Shown here: one piece after another, positions 8,963-23,199 of the stretch
How positions within the stretch are numbered: the stretch's first letter is position 1
Layout of the letters: each line of letters begins with the position of its first letter
Source: a virus
Direction: 5' to 3' (one strand)
DNA: 23,199 nt
IMG/VR virus record: IMGVR_UViG_3300009000_000043
Span: 1-23,199 of that record
Position numbers and translations under genes: made by a program
The notes under the pieces: generated by a model
Database searches by the model: none
Told to the model about the DNA's origin: nothing
What the model saw: only the letters and a program-made list of their open reading frames with translations

Positions 8963-9892
8963 TTACTTGGTTGGTGGTTTAGTATCTGTTCCACCACCAG
9001 CATCATTACCGTCATTTTGCCCATGCGTATGATTTACAAGGGATATTCCATCAGCGACCACATCGCCTGTTACATATGTTTGTAATCCACTTTGATATGT
9101 TAAATTTGCTACATTAGCTGTTTCAGTTTTCGAACCAGCGATTGTACGAGTTTCGTTTCCGCCAACTACCCAAGAAACATTGCCATCAACATAAACTTCT
9201 AAATCCCCTGTAATGTGCACTTTATCATTTCCAGTAACACTTCTCCATCCATTACTATGATGTGTTACAACATCGCCATTAGCATGGACTTCAACAAAGG
9301 TTCCCGATCTGTGCTTGATATGAATACGCTCATGGAGGGGAGTATCGTCTATCTCAATGAGATGTCCGCTCTCTGACTCATAAACGTGATTATATGGATA
9401 TTGAGCAGCATATGGATCAGCTGGTTCTTTAATAGTTGAATTGACATTTTTTGAAAAGATCTCTGAATTTCTAGCACGACTATTCACATCGCTTTCGTTA
9501 GTGTATCTTGGATAAATGCTTTTAGTACTATCGTCCGTTCTTGGATTTGGGTCATTAAAGCCAACATTTGGAGTACCAAATGAAGACGGAGCGCCAGCCA
9601 TCGTTCCTATAATGACTGGCTCTTGCGCCTGTTCTCCGTCTAGGAAGAATCCGACAACCCACGTTCCCTCAACAATTCCTGTCGGACTCCTGCCGACACC
9701 ACTGATCGCTGCCGAAGTGATGTCTTGCATTGGAGTCGCCCAAGGCAAACTTTCAGTCGGTATCTGTGCTTTATCATCGGTGTGCCAACCGTAACATCTG
9801 ACACGAACCCTTCCGAGTCGTATCGGGTCATTACGGTCTTCAACAACTCCAATGAACCAAACAAAGTTATTCTTCCCAATAAAGTTGCGCAT
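8963..9892 (-). CDS. 5: baseplate hub/spike protein gp5 without lysozyme domain
   Basis: This 309-residue protein has the gp5 N-terminal OB domain (about 8-100: FVWFIGVVEDRNDPIRLGRV, WHTDDK, LPWATPM, VGFFLDGEQAQEPVIIGTM). A linker strand region follows (175-217: SGHLIEIDDTP, RIHIKHRSGTFVEV). Then come at least five VxGxxxxx octads (219-258), the repeat that builds the T4 gp5 triple beta-helix. The end carries H288-T-H290, a spike-tip-like HxH. T4 gp5 has 575 residues with lysozyme at about 174-340. Here residues 100-175 are only a Pro/Asn/Ser-rich linker with no lysozyme motifs. It should trimerise as the membrane-piercing needle under gp27. It starts in a TAATG overlap with the upstream small gene. 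Confidence 0.92.
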   Translation of the reverse strand: MRNFIGKNNFVWFIGVVEDRNDPIRLGRVRVRCYGWHTDDKAQIPTESLPWATPMQDITSAAISGVGRSPTGIVEGTWVVGFFLDGEQAQEPVIIGTMAGAPSSFGTPNVGFNDPNPRTDDSTKSIYPRYTNESDVNSRARNSEIFSKNVNSTIKEPADPYAAQYPYNHVYESESGHLIEIDDTPLHERIHIKHRSGTFVEVHANGDVVTHHSNGWRSVTGNDKVHITGDLEVYVDGNVSWVVGGNETRTIAGSKTETANVANLTYQSGLQTYVTGDVVADGISLVNHTHGQNDGNDAGGGTDTKPPTK

Positions 9893-10077
9893 TACTCATC
9901 TTCACAGACACATTCGCCGCCACCACATACTTCACAAACAACCGCATCTGAAACGATTTCTTGTAAAACTTGTGGGGTTTCTTCTACAATTTCCTCAACC
10001 TCTTGAACTGGCTCAGGAATTTTCTTTTCTGGTTCTACGATTTCTTGTAGAAATTTTTGTTTCTTTGGTAAAGGCAT
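9892..10077 (-). CDS. small acidic CxxC protein, unknown
   Basis: A 61-residue product. Residues 1-10 are basic (MPLPKKQKF), the middle is rich in Glu, Pro and Val, and the end is CEVCGGGECVCEDE, with Cys at 48, 51, 56 and 58. Four closely spaced Cys could bind a metal or form disulfides. I do not recognise a family. The gene is credible because it has AAAGGGA before the ATG and one-base TAATG overlaps with both the kinase upstream and gp5 downstream. The position next to the spike gene suggests a virion-assembly or spike-associated role; this is inference only. Confidence 0.65.
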   Translation of the reverse strand: MPLPKKQKFLQEIVEPEKKIPEPVQEVEEIVEETPQVLQEIVSDAVVCEVCGGGECVCEDE

Positions 10078-10745
10078 TATTTGTCCCTTTCTTGTTTAAT
10101 CCATTTTTTGGCTAAGTGATTTCTTGGTTCACGATTCGCCCACTTTGAAATAGTTTTATAGGCTCGCATTGTGGCATTTTCTACATCAGATGAATCTGAA
10201 TTGTCTACGATAGTAATACCACCACGACCAAATATTGACTGAAACTTTCCAAGATTGTTTTGAACATCTTTCCACATTTTTTCAACAACACCATCAGGAA
10301 GTGATCTTGCTCTTTTATTATTTCTCGCAAGTGCAGTTTCAAGGTCAGTATTTACGAATATCATAGTGGTTTCATATCCAATATCTTCAAGCATTTTCTT
10401 TTGCCTTGAAATCTTTTCGAAGTCTTTACCTGTCCCATCAATTACTAATCCTAATCGACCAGCAATATAAAGATTCATCTGTTTACCAGTTAGTTCTTTA
10501 GATCTAACACGAATAGATTGACCTTGTTTCGAAAAGATTGTTTCTGGATCCATTTCTAAGCCAGCTTTTTTAAGAGCAGTTTCGAAGGCATTGTCAGAAT
10601 TAACAACCTTAAATCCAAGAGAAGGTAATGCAGTTTTGCCAACAACAAATGACTTACCGCTTCCTGGACCACCAGCCAAGAATACAGCTTTAAAGATCGC
10701 TGGGTCATTAACACCCTCTGTCAAGAAATCTTTAAAATTTAACAT
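10077..10745 (-). CDS. P-loop kinase (AAA_33/zeta-like) with capsid-targeting-like N terminus
   Basis: This 222-residue protein has a Walker A motif, GGPGSGKS (25-32), NSD (49-51), VIDGTGKD (101-108) and an arginine-rich lid, RNNKRARS (141-148). This is the layout of small nucleotide/polynucleotide kinases and zeta-type kinases (AAA_33 group). The substrate cannot be told from sequence. Residues 1-10, MLNFKDFLTE, resemble the capsid-targeting sequence of T4 internal proteins (MKTYQEFIAE) and end in L-T-E, which fits the LxE/IxE cleavage rule of prohead protease gp21. It may therefore be packaged in the head and injected. AGAGGAT precedes the ATG. It sits inside the hub operon between gp27 and gp5, where T4 has no kinase. 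Confidence 0.8.
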   Translation of the reverse strand: MLNFKDFLTEGVNDPAIFKAVFLAGGPGSGKSFVVGKTALPSLGFKVVNSDNAFETALKKAGLEMDPETIFSKQGQSIRVRSKELTGKQMNLYIAGRLGLVIDGTGKDFEKISRQKKMLEDIGYETTMIFVNTDLETALARNNKRARSLPDGVVEKMWKDVQNNLGKFQSIFGRGGITIVDNSDSSDVENATMRAYKTISKWANREPRNHLAKKWIKQERDK

Positions 10746-10748
10746 TCA

Positions 10749-12119
10749 TTATCCTCTTGGAACTACTTTAGATTGACTTGGTTGAATTCTGGGTTGTTTA
10801 CCTTCAACCCCAGTATCTTTAATACATTCCAAAAACGTTGTAAAGTTTTCTTCAATGTGTTTATGTCTTACTTTTGTGACTAAGTATTTTCCACTTAGAT
10901 ATTTATCTTCCTTTTTTGCGACTCCATCTATGTTAGTTGCTGGCGGAATGCTGAGATATACTATATCGCCAGCCAACACTTCAGAGTTTCCAGGAATACT
11001 TACACTTAAAACTTTATTTGATATGTGCTTAAAGAACGATCTTCTTTTAGGTTTATTTTGATATGTTTTATTAGGTATATGATTTTCTAATGCAAAAAAT
11101 ATATCAGAATCGTGCCCAGATCTTGTCGTATTTAATTCCACAATTGCTGTATCTTTTGAGGTTCCGAATACAGAATATGGTTGTAATTTGTTAAATTTTT
11201 CATAAATTTTAGAATAATCATAAATAGTCTCTGTTTTCTTTTTTCTCTGAATATCAATAGAGACCGTTTTCGTCTTATATAATCCACCCATAATATTGTC
11301 AAATAAACTAGATTCTTTCTCTACATTATAATTAATAATCTTTAATGGGTCTGTATATTCTTCTTTGGCATTATTATTACCCTCATCATAATTAGATGGA
11401 GCATAAGAAAATGTATATCTTGGTTCTTGAGAAACGATGGTGTTTAAATCTTTAAAATTAAATTTCTCAGCATCTTCCCAAAATACAAAATTAGAAACAG
11501 GTTTATCTGAAATAGATTCTCTGCACAGAAAGTCTATTGTATCGTCTATTCTCATATTTGGTATCACGAATTTCTGACGATTTTTAGTTTCTTCAATATC
11601 ATATGTTTTAGAGATTTTATATTTAAGAGTAGAACTAAGTTCGCTATACAGTGGCTCAAGTGGCTTTCGCATAAACTCTTTTGTAACACTATCAATCATT
11701 TGACTTACAAGGGTTGGCTGCGGATGTCCATATGCTCTTGAAACCTTAGAGTCTATCGTTTGATATGATTCAATCGAAACGCCAGAAAGAATATAAATTT
11801 CGTTTTTCTCGTCAACGGTTTGTCTATTGGATATTTCTGTTACACCAAACACATGAGTTTTGTATTTGGTCTTATCGTTTGGACCGCCTGTTCTGTATGA
11901 TATGATAATTAATTCGCCGCCAGTAATACCGCCGATAGCGTTTAGAGTCCCAGCAGCGTCAAATATTAAAATATCTGTTTGTAAATAATGCGAGAACATG
12001 TCTTGATAAACGCTCCACTCACGAAACAGTTTAAGCAGATCAATTTGTAATCCAGCATTTGTAACGAGTGTGAGAGTTTTTAATTCAACATCACCTGCGT
12101 TTCTATAACCCTCAGGCAT
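10749..12119 (-). CDS. 27: baseplate hub protein gp27-like
   Basis: A 456-residue protein (T4 gp27 has 391). Shared pattern with T4 gp27: an N-terminal tube-like domain with LQTDILIFDAAGTL (46-59), GGELIIISYRTG and KTHVFGVTEIS (87-97), like T4 GMLQFYDSK, GNEIIQISV and KTRIYGCKHFS. There is a middle block, NFVFWEDAEKFNFKDLN then SQEPRYTFSY (210-239), like T4 KFVFVWQDIMGVNMMDYD then NQEPYP. The C terminus has YLVTKVRHKHIEENFTTFLE, like T4 FYVDEVIHEL with THLYMF. gp27 trimers adapt the spike to the tube. It lies upstream of gp5 in the same operon, as expected for hub partners, and overlaps the gp53 stop (TAATG) with AGGAAG as ribosome site. Confidence 0.8.
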   Translation of the reverse strand: MPEGYRNAGDVELKTLTLVTNAGLQIDLLKLFREWSVYQDMFSHYLQTDILIFDAAGTLNAIGGITGGELIIISYRTGGPNDKTKYKTHVFGVTEISNRQTVDEKNEIYILSGVSIESYQTIDSKVSRAYGHPQPTLVSQMIDSVTKEFMRKPLEPLYSELSSTLKYKISKTYDIEETKNRQKFVIPNMRIDDTIDFLCRESISDKPVSNFVFWEDAEKFNFKDLNTIVSQEPRYTFSYAPSNYDEGNNNAKEEYTDPLKIINYNVEKESSLFDNIMGGLYKTKTVSIDIQRKKKTETIYDYSKIYEKFNKLQPYSVFGTSKDTAIVELNTTRSGHDSDIFFALENHIPNKTYQNKPKRRSFFKHISNKVLSVSIPGNSEVLAGDIVYLSIPPATNIDGVAKKEDKYLSGKYLVTKVRHKHIEENFTTFLECIKDTGVEGKQPRIQPSQSKVVPRG

Positions 12120-13734: not shown

Positions 13735-14175
13735 ATGGCTTATCGTGGTAAATTTCGCCCGAAGTATCCTCAAAAATACAAAGGCGATCCAACTAACATT
13801 ATTTATAGGAGTTTGTGGGAAGCAAACTGTATGAAATACTTTGATCTGAATCCTAGTATATTATACTGGAGTTCGGAAGAGGTCATTGTACCCTACAAAT
13901 CCCCTATTGACGGTCGTTGGCATCGCTACTTCCCTGACTTTATCATTCGTGTTAAAAATAAAGATAATCAGACTGAAACTATAATGATTGAAGTCAAACC
14001 GAATAAACAGACAAAAGAACCTAAACCGCAAAAAAGAATTACTAAGAAGTATTTATACGAAGTGCAGACATGGGGTATAAATAGTGCTAAATGGAAAGCG
14101 GCAGAGGAATTTTGCGCAGATCGTAAATGGAAGTTTATGATTCTAACAGAAAAAGAACTAGGAATTAAATATTAA
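13735..14175 (+). CDS. 4: head completion nuclease gp4
   Basis: The 146-residue product is close to T4 gp4 (150). It contains GKFRPKYPQKYKGDPTNIIY (5-24), then RSLWE, WSSEEVIVPYKSPIDGRWHR (45-64), and YFPDF with IEVKP (65-89). Pro67-Asp68 followed by Glu86-Val-Lys88 is a PD-(D/E)xK nuclease core, consistent with the head-completion nuclease that prepares filled heads for tail joining. The start at 13735 is supported by alignment of the N terminus with the family, although no ribosome site precedes it. It opens the plus-strand block, ends one base into the next ORF (TAATG), and lies back to back with gp48. Confidence 0.92.
   Translation: MAYRGKFRPKYPQKYKGDPTNIIYRSLWEANCMKYFDLNPSILYWSSEEVIVPYKSPIDGRWHRYFPDFIIRVKNKDNQTETIMIEVKPNKQTKEPKPQKRITKKYLYEVQTWGINSAKWKAAEEFCADRKWKFMILTEKELGIKY
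13800..13807 (-). promoter_or_regulatory. T4-type late promoter for gp48 operon, inside gp4
   Basis: The minus strand reads TATAAATA within the 5' part of gp4. The predicted start near 13794 gives a leader of about 71 bases to the gp48 ATG at 13722, and that leader is antisense to the start of gp4. On the plus strand the same bases encode part of the conserved gp4 NIIYR motif, so a coincidence cannot be excluded. Confidence 0.5.
14076..14083 (+). promoter_or_regulatory. possible late promoter for the 14175 gene
   Basis: An exact TATAAATA inside gp4. The predicted start near 14089 lies 86 bases before the next ATG. The match is perfect but sits inside coding sequence, so the call depends on consensus and position only. 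Confidence 0.45.
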
Positions 14176-20502: not shown

Positions 20503-21009
20503 TTATTCTTCCCAACGATAAAAAATATGATCGTCTATTTCAGTTGTCTTAGTTTTAGTGGATGCCCAATCAGGCGAAACATAGTCCGCATGATAATGAG
20601 TTGAACCTTCAGTTATATCATAGAACTCATTATAATATAAATCTATGGAAATGTCAAGTATTTCTTTGTAATATTCAATATGTTTTTCATGAATAGTGTC
20701 TGCCTGTCCGTCGCAATACCAACTAAACTGACAACGATTCTTTACAGGAATGATATTACCTTTCCAGTTGGTATATGTTGGACCTTGCTTTACGACTGAA
20801 CAAACTGTATCGGGAAAACGTGCATCTCTTACACGATTTAATGTGACAAGACCAACAGCAATTTTACCAGCCAAAGACTGATTCCTTGCCTCAAAATAGA
20901 TGTTTTCTGCTAGACAAGATATTTCGGATTTCTCAAATTCGTTGACTTTAAAGTCATCAACATCCGAAAAGGCTGAAAGAATTTGAAATAATGCTGCTGC
21001 TTCAATCAT
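20503..21009 (-). CDS. SleB-type cell wall hydrolase (endolysin candidate)
   Basis: This 168-residue protein carries the Hydrolase_2 (SleB/CwlJ) signature: CLAENIYFEARNQSLAGKIA (32-51), VGLVTLNRVRD, FPDTVCSVVKQ, CQFSWYCDG (93-101) and THYHADYV (137-144). Glu35 or Glu40 in AENIYFEAR is the expected catalytic acid. The family cleaves peptidoglycan glycan strands. The N terminus has a short hydrophobic stretch but no clear signal peptide, so a holin or other export route would be needed. It is the only peptidoglycan hydrolase visible here and could serve lysis, entry, or both. GGAG precedes the ATG, and a sigma70-like promoter lies just upstream. It heads the SleB-33-59-32 unit. Confidence 0.88.
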   Translation of the reverse strand: MIEAAALFQILSAFSDVDDFKVNEFEKSEISCLAENIYFEARNQSLAGKIAVGLVTLNRVRDARFPDTVCSVVKQGPTYTNWKGNIIPVKNRCQFSWYCDGQADTIHEKHIEYYKEILDISIDLYYNEFYDITEGSTHYHADYVSPDWASTKTKTTEIDDHIFYRWEE

Positions 21010-21292: not shown

Positions 21293-21661
21293 TTAGTTTG
21301 CTAGAGGATTTTTAAGAGCCTCCTCGATTTGTATTCCGATTGATTTTCTAATATCTATAAGTTCTCTCTGAGTCTCAGTTTCTAACTCATAGAGGCGACG
21401 CATCGCATCTCTCGTATCATTTAATAAAAGATTTACATCAGCGTTTACACGATTAACAGTTTCCTTTTGAACTGCTAGTTCCTGTTCGATATGTGATAGG
21501 TCTGGTGCTTCGTATGCTTCAATACGTTCTTTCATATCCATATAGTCGCCCCAAAATTCTGCGGCTCCCCATACGATACCAGCTGCAGTTGATAGTGCCA
21601 TAAGCACTGCTGCCATTTTACCGCCAGTAAATTTAATGCCACCAACTTCTACTTCTGCCAT
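21293..21661 (-). CDS. membrane-anchored coiled-coil protein, unknown
   Basis: A 122-residue protein. After a short hydrophilic start, residues 16-37 (MAAVLMALSTAAGIVWGAAEFW) form one membrane segment. Residues 45-112 are a charged heptad-like coiled coil (HIEQELAVQKETVNRVNADV and onwards). The single anchor plus long coil resembles a spanin-like or tail-attached membrane protein, but no lipobox or paired spanin gene is visible. It starts in a TGATG overlap with the stop of the Cys-repeat gene, so the two are translationally coupled and may act together. The hydrolase lies two genes downstream, which makes a lysis role possible; this is inference. Confidence 0.7.
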   Translation of the reverse strand: MAEVEVGGIKFTGGKMAAVLMALSTAAGIVWGAAEFWGDYMDMKERIEAYEAPDLSHIEQELAVQKETVNRVNADVNLLLNDTRDAMRRLYELETETQRELIDIRKSIGIQIEEALKNPLAN

Positions 21662-23199
21662 CAGTATTGACTCCTTATTAATTGTTGCATTAGACCATAA
21701 TTTTGTCTGCGCATTCTATAATGGTCTGCGTTGTTACCTATAATTTTTTGATCACCATATATTTGTGACAGAACATATATTTCATCTCTGTCTATCATTG
21801 CTGTATCATACTGTGTCAAATCGACAGCATTATTGATGCTATCAAGCATTTGTGTCTGACCCTTATACGTTGCAGACTTCTCTAAGTTATTCTTTCTAAC
21901 CTGCTCAGCCAATCGTTCAGCAAGTGATTGTTGTTTCTCTGTTGGTTCATTACTCTGCTCAGAACCTTGCTGCGGTATAATAACAACTACAACTGGACCA
22001 ACACCAGCGGCTGCATTGTTATCATTCTGTGCTTGTGACTCGGTTGCAGATGATTCGCCAGATGAGATTGATTGTGACACTAACCCACCAACCAGCCGAT
22101 CAGAAATCCCACGCCCAATACTGACAGCGTCAATTGCAGGTCGTTCTCTGCTATTCTTTTGCTCAGCTGGCTCACTACTGTTTTCAGCTTGTTCATTTTG
22201 TTTCTCCTGTGGTTCTTCATTCTTAGTTTCTTCAATAGGCTGCTCAATAATTTCTTCTTCTACCACAGTTTCTTCGAACACCTCATTAACTGTTTCCTGC
22301 TCAACGACAACAGGCTCTTCAAACGTTTCTTGTGGTTGCGACTCAATAACAGGTACTTGAACCTCTATTATATATCCGTCACAAATAGGAGAGTATTGAG
22401 GATTCATTTCGCATTGTTGTCCAAAGAACGCTTCAGCATATCCTGGACAACCATTGTCATAGAGAGCATCTAACGAGCATTGTTGATTGTAATATGCCTC
22501 TTCATATCCTGGACACCCAGTATCGTATAAAGCATCCAACGAACATTGTTGATCGTAATACGCTTCGGCATACCCTGGACAGCCATTATCATACAACGCA
22601 TTTAATGAACATTGCTGGTCATAATATGCCTCTGCATATCCAGGGCATCCTTGATCGTATAAAGCATCATACCCACATTGCTGTTGATAGTATGCTTCTT
22701 CATATCCAGGACACCCTGTATCGTAAAGGGAATCAAAGCCACACTGTTGCGTATAGTATGCCTCCGCATAACCAGTACACCCTTGGTCATATAACGGATC
22801 ATACGAACATTGTTGATTGTAATATGCCTCTGCATATCCTTCACAAGTCGGATCTGATAATGGATTGGCGGCACAGGCATCAACCTCATATACAATTTTT
22901 AGTTCTAATGGCCAAAATTCTGGACCATACCATCCTGCCCAAAACCCAGCATCATCGCCTGTTGCGGTAAGTTTAATATTACTAAGGTCAGATAAAGCAT
23001 ATGGGTCAGCGAATATCTCTGTTCCAGCAAAGTGTGTCCAATCTGTTATGGGATATCCATAATCATAATGATAATTCTCAACAACATTACCAGAAGAATC
23101 ATAAAGGTTAATGTAAATGTCTAATGGGTCTTGAGGAGACCCGAATTGAGTGTTGGCGTTATAGTTCTTTACATGCCAGTGATATGAAAATCCAAGAAC
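21661..23199 (-). CDS. Cys-rich CPGY-repeat protein, 5' end outside window
   Basis: The frame is open from the right edge to TGA at 21661, 512 visible residues without a start, so the N terminus lies beyond the window. Residues 1-113 form an aromatic, beta-looking domain (FSYHWHVKNY, DPLDIYINLYDSSGNV, GDDAGFWAGWYGPEFWPLE), lectin-like in flavour. Residues 114-267 are seven tandem 22-residue repeats, consensus LYDxGCPGYAEAYYxQQCxxDA, two Cys each. A degenerate eighth starts QYSPICDGY. Then comes a Glu/Pro/Val-rich stretch (about 281-350), a Ser/Gln/Asn-rich linker with PVVVVIIP, and a charged C-terminal domain. I recall similar NPLYDxxCPGY repeats in marine phages, with unknown role. Surface adhesion with disulfide- or metal-stabilised repeats is a guess. 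Confidence 0.85.
   Translation of the reverse strand, partial: VLGFSYHWHVKNYNANTQFGSPQDPLDIYINLYDSSGNVVENYHYDYGYPITDWTHFAGTEIFADPYALSDLSNIKLTATGDDAGFWAGWYGPEFWPLELKIVYEVDACAANPLSDPTCEGYAEAYYNQQCSYDPLYDQGCTGYAEAYYTQQCGFDSLYDTGCPGYEEAYYQQQCGYDALYDQGCPGYAEAYYDQQCSLNALYDNGCPGYAEAYYDQQCSLDALYDTGCPGYEEAYYNQQCSLDALYDNGCPGYAEAFFGQQCEMNPQYSPICDGYIIEVQVPVIESQPQETFEEPVVVEQETVNEVFEETVVEEEIIEQPIEETKNEEPQEKQNEQAENSSEPAEQKNSRERPAIDAVSIGRGISDRLVGGLVSQSISSGESSATESQAQNDNNAAAGVGPVVVVIIPQQGSEQSNEPTEKQQSLAERLAEQVRKNNLEKSATYKGQTQMLDSINNAVDLTQYDTAMIDRDEIYVLSQIYGDQKIIGNNADHYRMRRQNYGLMQQLIRSQY
22399..22860 (-). repeat. seven tandem 66-bp repeats encoding Cys-rich units
   Basis: Seven in-frame units of exactly 66 bp: 22795-22860, 22729-22794, 22663-22728, 22597-22662, 22531-22596, 22465-22530 and 22399-22464. 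Each encodes 22 residues with Cys at positions 6 and 18. The CPGY and QQC codons are the most constant. The outermost copies (first and seventh) are the most diverged, as expected for growth by unequal exchange in the centre. Confidence 0.92.

Follow-up and report, generated by a model that had tools for sequence, protein, structure and literature searches.

Why does a gene for a small P-loop kinase lie among the baseplate genes of a marine T4-like phage, and why does its product begin with a peptide resembling those that target the internal proteins of T4 to the capsid? We addressed these questions in the window, which is the whole 23,199-nucleotide stretch of DNA analysed here (IMG/VR record IMGVR_UViG_3300009000_000043). 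A first-pass annotation had described the decapeptide MLNFKDFLTE directly followed by a kinase with GGPGSGKS, VIDGTG and an Arg lid, and had proposed that the enzyme is packed into the prohead, trimmed after Glu10 and delivered with the DNA. All of the described elements were found in one ATG-initiated reading frame: when the minus strand is read from 10745 to 10077, MLNFKDFLTE directly precedes GVNDPAIFKAVFLAGGPGSGKS, the predicted junction reads MLNFKDFLTE/GVNDPAIFK (the slash within a peptide marks a predicted or known cut), and VIDGTG corresponds to residues 101-106. The coordinates are collected in Table 1.

Table 1. Features of the kinase gene and its surroundings in the window.
Feature	Positions	Strand	Basis
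Tagged P-loop kinase CDS, 222 aa	10077..10745	-	ORF list and sequence; Pfam AAA_33 and Zeta_toxin; homologous loci
Capsid-targeting-like N-terminal tag MLNFKDFLTE	10716..10745	-	T4 CTS residues 4, 7, 8 and 10 matched (PMC9026906); E10 conservation; unstructured in model
Predicted cleavage after Glu10	10716/10715	-	LxE site at tag end
Predicted mature kinase, residues 11-222, start GVNDPAIFK	10080..10715	-	AlphaFold mean pLDDT 86.7; Foldseek P-loop kinase fold
Walker A GGPGSGKS, residues 25-32	10650..10673	-	Near-invariant in alignment A1
Asp51, candidate catalytic base	10593..10595	-	Invariant; aligns with Asp35 of T4 PNK
DGTG motif, residues 103-106, zeta-like Walker B region	10428..10439	-	Invariant; aligns with EGTG of zeta toxin 1gvn
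Arg lid RNNKRAR, residues 141-147	10305..10325	-	R141, R145 and R147 invariant
Hub/tail gene upstream of kinase, same operon (phrog_350)	10749..12119	-	PHROGs 4e-65
61-aa acidic ORF downstream of kinase	9892..10077	-	1-nt overlap with kinase; without family match
gp5-like hub/spike OB protein, same operon	8963..9892	-	Pfam Gp5_OB 2e-29
T4-type late promoter motif TATAAATA upstream of hub operon	13800..13807	-	Motif scan of window

In T4 IPIII, which starts with MKTYQEFIAE, residues 4 and 7 serve targeting and residues 8 and 10 serve processing (PMC9026906). The kinase tag matches IPIII at all four of these key residues: F4 and F7 follow the aromatic/hydrophobic rule for T4-type propeptides of 10-19 residues, and L8-T9-E10 follows the Leu/Ile-x-Glu rule for the processing site. 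In layout the tag agrees with those of T4 IPI, IPII, IPIII and Alt: it is short and N-terminal, positions 4 and 7 are aromatic, position 8 is Leu or Ile, and Glu occupies position 10. A scan of the T4 sequence also showed that FLTE is shared with the end of the propeptide of the major capsid protein gp23 (SFLTE/A), which loses 65 residues.

The close match to T4 seen at first pass also stood up when we counted a strict tag pattern, M..[FYL]..[FYWL][LIM].E, in ten sequences comprising the window and related genomes. Other ORFs with the same tag do exist: the pattern was present at 8 of 1204 called ORF starts versus none of 5869 internal Met residues, so a chance origin of the kinase tag is unlikely. 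As a positive control, the same pattern picked out 3 of 270 ORFs in T4, namely IPII, IPIII and gp61.1. The last of these, a 54-aa protein (L203:18966-19130, minus strand) starting with MKTFKEFIKE/D, is a strict CTS match and, judged by this start, is possibly an unrecognised T4 internal protein.

We then examined conservation of the site in two homologue scans, the first of which comprised 56 loci and the second at least 578 matched stretches. The first-pass annotation had named homologues lacking the tag as evidence against its reading. In the pooled scans, Glu occupied P1 in 104 of 106 distinct homologous contexts, a count that may be biased upward since one of the two search patterns held E-G-[VI]-[ND]-D-P and so favoured Glu at P1 (the Walker A pattern did not). 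The two contexts without this Glu belong to remote relatives in bacterial bins (28-31% identity), and one of them, L223, looks cellular. P3 was Leu in 53, Ile in 31, Met in 10 and Val in 8 contexts (102 of 106 together), while P4-P9 were variable and the upstream sequence differed in both composition and length. In the first survey, whose patterns were taken from several parts of the protein, Glu together with Leu, Ile, Met or Val was present in 24 of 24 non-redundant sequences, including Melnitz, HTVC008M and Atu_ph07, and E10 was invariant in the 22 aligned homologues of alignment A1. The 10-residue form of the tag is not universal, because the kinase starts with MKTFAELQE/G in Melnitz and with the shorter MIPFILKE/G in HTVC008M, a genome in which several strict tags were expected and none was found.

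A second branch of the kinase, about 25% identical, is represented in 237 phage records, RB43, KP15 and Aeromonas phage 65 among them. These three start with MKSFKDFVSLDE/A, MKSFKQFTESTLTE/A and MKKFSEFIKLEE/K, respectively. Among the members of this branch that we examined, the spacing between tag and kinase is variable, with A, K or G at P1', indicating that the tag Glu is not simply a residue of the fold. The longer tags resemble the start of T4 IPI, MKTFKEFTSTTTPVSTITE/A, and the kinase family thus parallels the T4 internal proteins in having both 10-residue and long IPI-like tags.

The window protein is a single domain. In 15 of the 106 contexts, by comparison, the kinase lay within a longer ORF (up to 1320 residues) and was still preceded by [L/I/V]xE/G, as in FESYLKE/G, YLEE/G, ALTE/G, VLEE/G and ELGE/G; Val at P3, present in several fused forms, departs from the Leu or Ile of classic gp21 sites. 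Such long proteins, several of them multidomain, were found in L037, L040, L043, L046 and Atu_ph07. In the first four, a HIGH-motif nucleotidyltransferase (CTP_transf_like) forms the N-terminal part and a strongly basic stretch comes next, to which L040 adds DUF5824. Tag-like motifs lie at apparent domain junctions of the long ORFs (FEAYLEE/A, FETFISE/E, FESYLKE/G), at 1.75 motifs per 1000 polyprotein residues against 0.27 elsewhere (6.5-fold; shuffle P<0.001 for two polyproteins). Contig G009 encodes the kinase on its own, as a tagged ORF immediately before the polyprotein gene, and the polyprotein there has no kinase. From these arrangements, we read the kinase domain as one that moves between two delivery formats and retains its cleavage site. 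The kinase polyprotein of Atu_ph07 is CDS 53 (AUZ94865) and lies inside a cluster, CDS 31-76, with 29 detected virion proteins.

The tag is also carried by proteins unrelated to the kinase. Of the 29 distinct starts of DUF6267, a family encoded in the same genomes, 28 carry this 10-residue tag, and E10 is present without exception in the alignment of the family. In this family (PF19782; L021:11318-12538 and loci L120-L199), KWDG, QGD, EG and a late Lys (K386) are invariant and follow the motif order of nucleotidyltransferases/ligases. Foldseek returned no significant match for DUF6267 (best E 0.057; spurious carbonic anhydrase hits), with DNA/RNA ligases common among the weak matches, so its identity as an RNA ligase is suggestive. 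Small tagged ORFs lie beside the prohead protease gene in three relatives, starting with MKSYKEILQELSE (G006), MKTYKELLSE (G020) and MKRFKNLVES (G019). Of 25 related records, 5 encode an S77 (gp21-type) prohead protease and the remainder are mostly short fragments; the window's own protease is not visible because the window is a 23-kb fragment without the head-gene cluster. In the major capsid proteins of relatives, [LM]xE stands where the propeptide presumably ends, and in G006 FMTE is present in both the capsid protein and the kinase.

Published virion proteomes of cyanophages allowed us to compare tags with particles. In S-SM1, the strict tag was present on 1 of 191 ORFs in the 155 kb scanned, namely SSM1_190 (T4-GC190), which starts with MKKFSAFLNE/A and is homologous to the nucleotidyltransferase module of the polyproteins. 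The published S-SM1 proteome reports T4-GC190 in virions (PMC3037559). The S-SM1 virion protein GC15, for which a tag was expected, does not have one and, from where it is encoded, may be a baseplate protein. For S-CREM2, the published virion proteome gives coordinates (PMC10665884), and on these data 4 of the 5 strict-tagged proteins were detected in virions: a SAM hydrolase, gp13, an APH-like kinase and a cytidylyltransferase. Among the 139 non-structural CDSs, 4 of 15 virion-detected proteins had the strict tag versus 1 of 124 undetected ones (P=4e-4), and when all 196 CDSs including the structural ones were counted, the numbers were 4 of 41 versus 1 of 155 (P=0.007). The S-CREM2 authors caution that abundant enzymes may co-purify with virions. 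Two further S-CREM2 proteins are worth recording. The Cas9-annotated virion nuclease gp12 (L305:7704-10313) contains the tag-like PLRFASFMAE/AA, with LRFASFMAE/A at residues 17-25, and gp136 starts with MQTFSMFFSE.

Here, we need to consider that the protein might be an ordinary intracellular nucleotide or RNA kinase that is never packaged, its extension being an element of the fold or the product of drift. Such enzymes are numerous in phages, and the domain matches the folds of PNK, zeta and adenylate kinases. In addition, G11 and D14-P15, right behind the tag, are also invariant in alignment A1, and a role of Glu10-Gly11 in the kinase fold is conceivable. However, the extension is detached in the AlphaFold model, with pLDDT below 50 at residues 1-8 and averages of 80-96 in the blocks from residue 11, and it is variable among homologues save at P3 and P1. 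L223, 31% identical to the kinase, has no tag at all, indicating that the fold does not need one. Finally, the tag occurs on unrelated proteins, some of which were detected in virions of S-CREM2 and S-SM1. We regard an unpackaged kinase as unlikely, and consider it probable, from comparison of sequences, that the kinase is virion cargo, packaged and trimmed by means of its T4-type tag.

What kind of enzyme would be carried was examined with profiles and structure comparison. The kinase matched Pfam AAA_33 (8e-11) and Zeta_toxin (2e-07) above the gathering cut-off; for the latter, PF06414, it scored 31.1 bits versus a cut-off of 22.3, and L043 scored 55 bits. When aligned with zeta toxin 1gvn, GGPGSGKS, D51 and DGTG were conserved. 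The structure search against zeta and PNK families that had been suggested at first pass returned P-loop kinases including both, and the target-normalised TM scores in Foldseek were about 0.65 for adenylate kinases, 0.47 for zeta toxin and 0.67 for the bacterial PNK 4gp6, while sequence profiles favour zeta. On these profiles and the predicted model, the fold is that of a zeta/PNK-type P-loop kinase. Like T4 PNK (PseT), the protein has a P-loop, lid arginines and an equivalent of Asp35, the invariant D51. Arg38 of T4 PNK binds the acceptor and is essential. At this position the window kinase has Phe54, the aligned homologues have an aromatic residue and the neighbouring Glu55 is invariant; the chain also lacks a phosphatase domain. 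We therefore rejected a T4-type PNK on the absence of Arg38. The protein resembles the zeta toxin family PF06414, and the zeta-like kinases of polyvalent proteins (PMC5512222), in its profile match, its DGTG motif and the domain fusions found in phages, but differs in having a putative gp21-type cleavage tag in place of MuF fusion or conjugation, and no antitoxin neighbour was found. An epsilon/zeta toxin-antitoxin pair was rejected because the 61-aa ORF beside the kinase matched nothing in Pfam or PHROGs, and PADLOC gave no match that would make the kinase an anti-phage defence protein.

For the substrate, a nucleotide or RNA is our leading guess, a tentative one, and a zeta-like sugar nucleotide is the second and a clearly weaker one; the RNA ends and cell-wall precursors named at first pass are likewise no more than guesses. 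The former is mildly favoured because a HAD-type nucleotidase-like gene follows the kinase gene in Melnitz and in the RB43/KP15 branch, and because DUF6267 lies near the kinase in about 20 of 56 loci.

In a second alternative, the protein is packaged as a component of the scaffold or core and its kinase activity is irrelevant or lost. The Vibrio phages VH7D and D490 encode 480-residue homologues that keep the tag and have a degenerate P-loop (L116:1456-2901 and L117:956-2392); their genes lie in the head cluster after genes for gp24/head protein and a sigma factor. Sites of the LxE type are, moreover, present in T4 core proteins as well. On the contrary, K31, D51, D103, R141, R145 and R147 are invariant in the window and the 22-member alignment, indicating selection for catalysis, and we find a purely structural role improbable for the window protein.

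In the window, the operon runs in the order tail tube cap, gp53, phrog_350 hub protein, kinase, 61-aa ORF, gp5-like OB protein, gp25 and gp6, and the kinase gene is separated by 3 nt from the phrog_350 hub gene before it and shares 1 nt with the 61-aa ORF behind it. Motifs of the TATAAATA type were observed 8 times in the window versus 2.4 expected, a count reached in 1 of 100 shuffles. The motif just before the hub operon makes late expression of the kinase plausible, as had been proposed at first pass. The proposal had drawn this from the place of the gene in the hub operon, and here the outcome was mixed: the position downstream of the hub gene is common to the window and Melnitz, and most relatives do not have it. 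In Aeromonas phages the kinase gene adjoins the head decoration gene hoc, in Vibrio phages a degenerate kinase gene comes after the gene for head vertex protein gp24, and in other relatives the gene is downstream of gp41, beside other tagged ORFs. That the tag sends the protein to the hub of the baseplate or to the tail, as the place between the phrog_350 and gp5 genes here and the similar one in Melnitz might suggest, is very improbable given these other locations, the match of the tag to a head-protease site and the tagged non-structural proteins of S-CREM2, which are not tail proteins.

As a scheme for the cargo kinase, we suggest the following. Late in infection, translation of the hub operon would yield the kinase, and its first ten residues would act as a T4-type CTS that docks it on the prohead core. 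A gp21-type prohead protease would then cut after Glu10 (LTE/G), freeing a 212-residue P-loop kinase that may remain in the head and exit with the DNA. Relatives would make this domain as a separate tagged ORF or as a polyprotein module, with (L/I/V)xE sites that the protease also cuts. Once in the new cell, the kinase would act as a phosphotransferase ahead of phage gene expression, on a small molecule or on nucleotide or RNA. The packaging and the cut after Glu10 foreseen in the first-pass annotation are supported, by comparison, through the conserved P1 and P3, the fused forms, DUF6267 and the S-CREM2 association. Injection with the DNA and a catalytic role are suggested by analogy with Alt and the IP proteins of T4, and presence in a particle does not in itself prove injection.

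Targeting of internal proteins is known from T4; the kinase as a probable type of cargo and the putative polyprotein format in relatives would be new. The T4 cargo consists of small internal proteins and an ADP-ribosyltransferase, unlike the P-loop kinase here, and, also unlike T4, relatives of the kinase occur as a polyprotein module with internal tag-like sites. Virion enzymes of the Kyanoviridae S-CREM2 and S-SM1 are also close: an APH-like kinase, an NMNAT-like cytidylyltransferase and a SAM hydrolase carry the same tag (PMC10665884, PMC3037559). The window kinase is zeta/PNK-like, in contrast to the APH/ChoK-like kinase of cyanophage virions. The accessible passages of these two papers do not mention a targeting tag, and a literature search, mostly without subscription journals, found no paper tying the CTS to marine cargo enzymes.

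We are slightly more inclined to accept than to doubt a broader reading, in which the tag would be a general enzyme-loading code of marine T4-like phages. The code would extend to polyproteins whose modules (HIGH-motif nucleotidyltransferase, very basic domain, DUF5824 and zeta-like kinase) bear internal copies of tag and cleavage site and are cut inside the prohead by gp21, one gene thus delivering several enzymes to the next host, and the tag alone would predict injected cargo: the kinase, the ligase-like DUF6267, the NMNAT-like protein, the SAM hydrolase, the APH-like kinase and the Cas9-like nuclease. If this is true, a ten-residue motif flags, from sequence, proteins that many marine phages bring into the host, and 'hypothetical' phage genes become testable candidates for host takeover in the first minutes and for counter-defence. 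It would also give a packaging mechanism for the unexplained enzymes of cyanophage virions, and with the polyproteins the prohead protease would have a new function, the processing of multi-enzyme cargo beyond propeptide trimming.

Several minor observations were made along the way. The acidic 61-aa protein encoded behind the kinase has two LQE/IV repeats and a Cys-rich tail. In Tenacibaculum phage PTm5 (ORF-187; L115, locus 1-1505), an intein-like insertion seems to split the P-loop of the kinase homologue, with residues ending in IYVSGN before SGKGF. Elsewhere in the window, a 311-residue ORF on the minus strand (21661-22596) contains tandem repeats with Cys (DNGCPGYAEAYYDQQCSLDALY), its TTG start being uncertain, and the ORF antisense to it (22494-22970) is probably spurious. 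A 168-residue ORF, also on the minus strand (20503-21009), presumably resembles a SleB-type cell-wall hydrolase.
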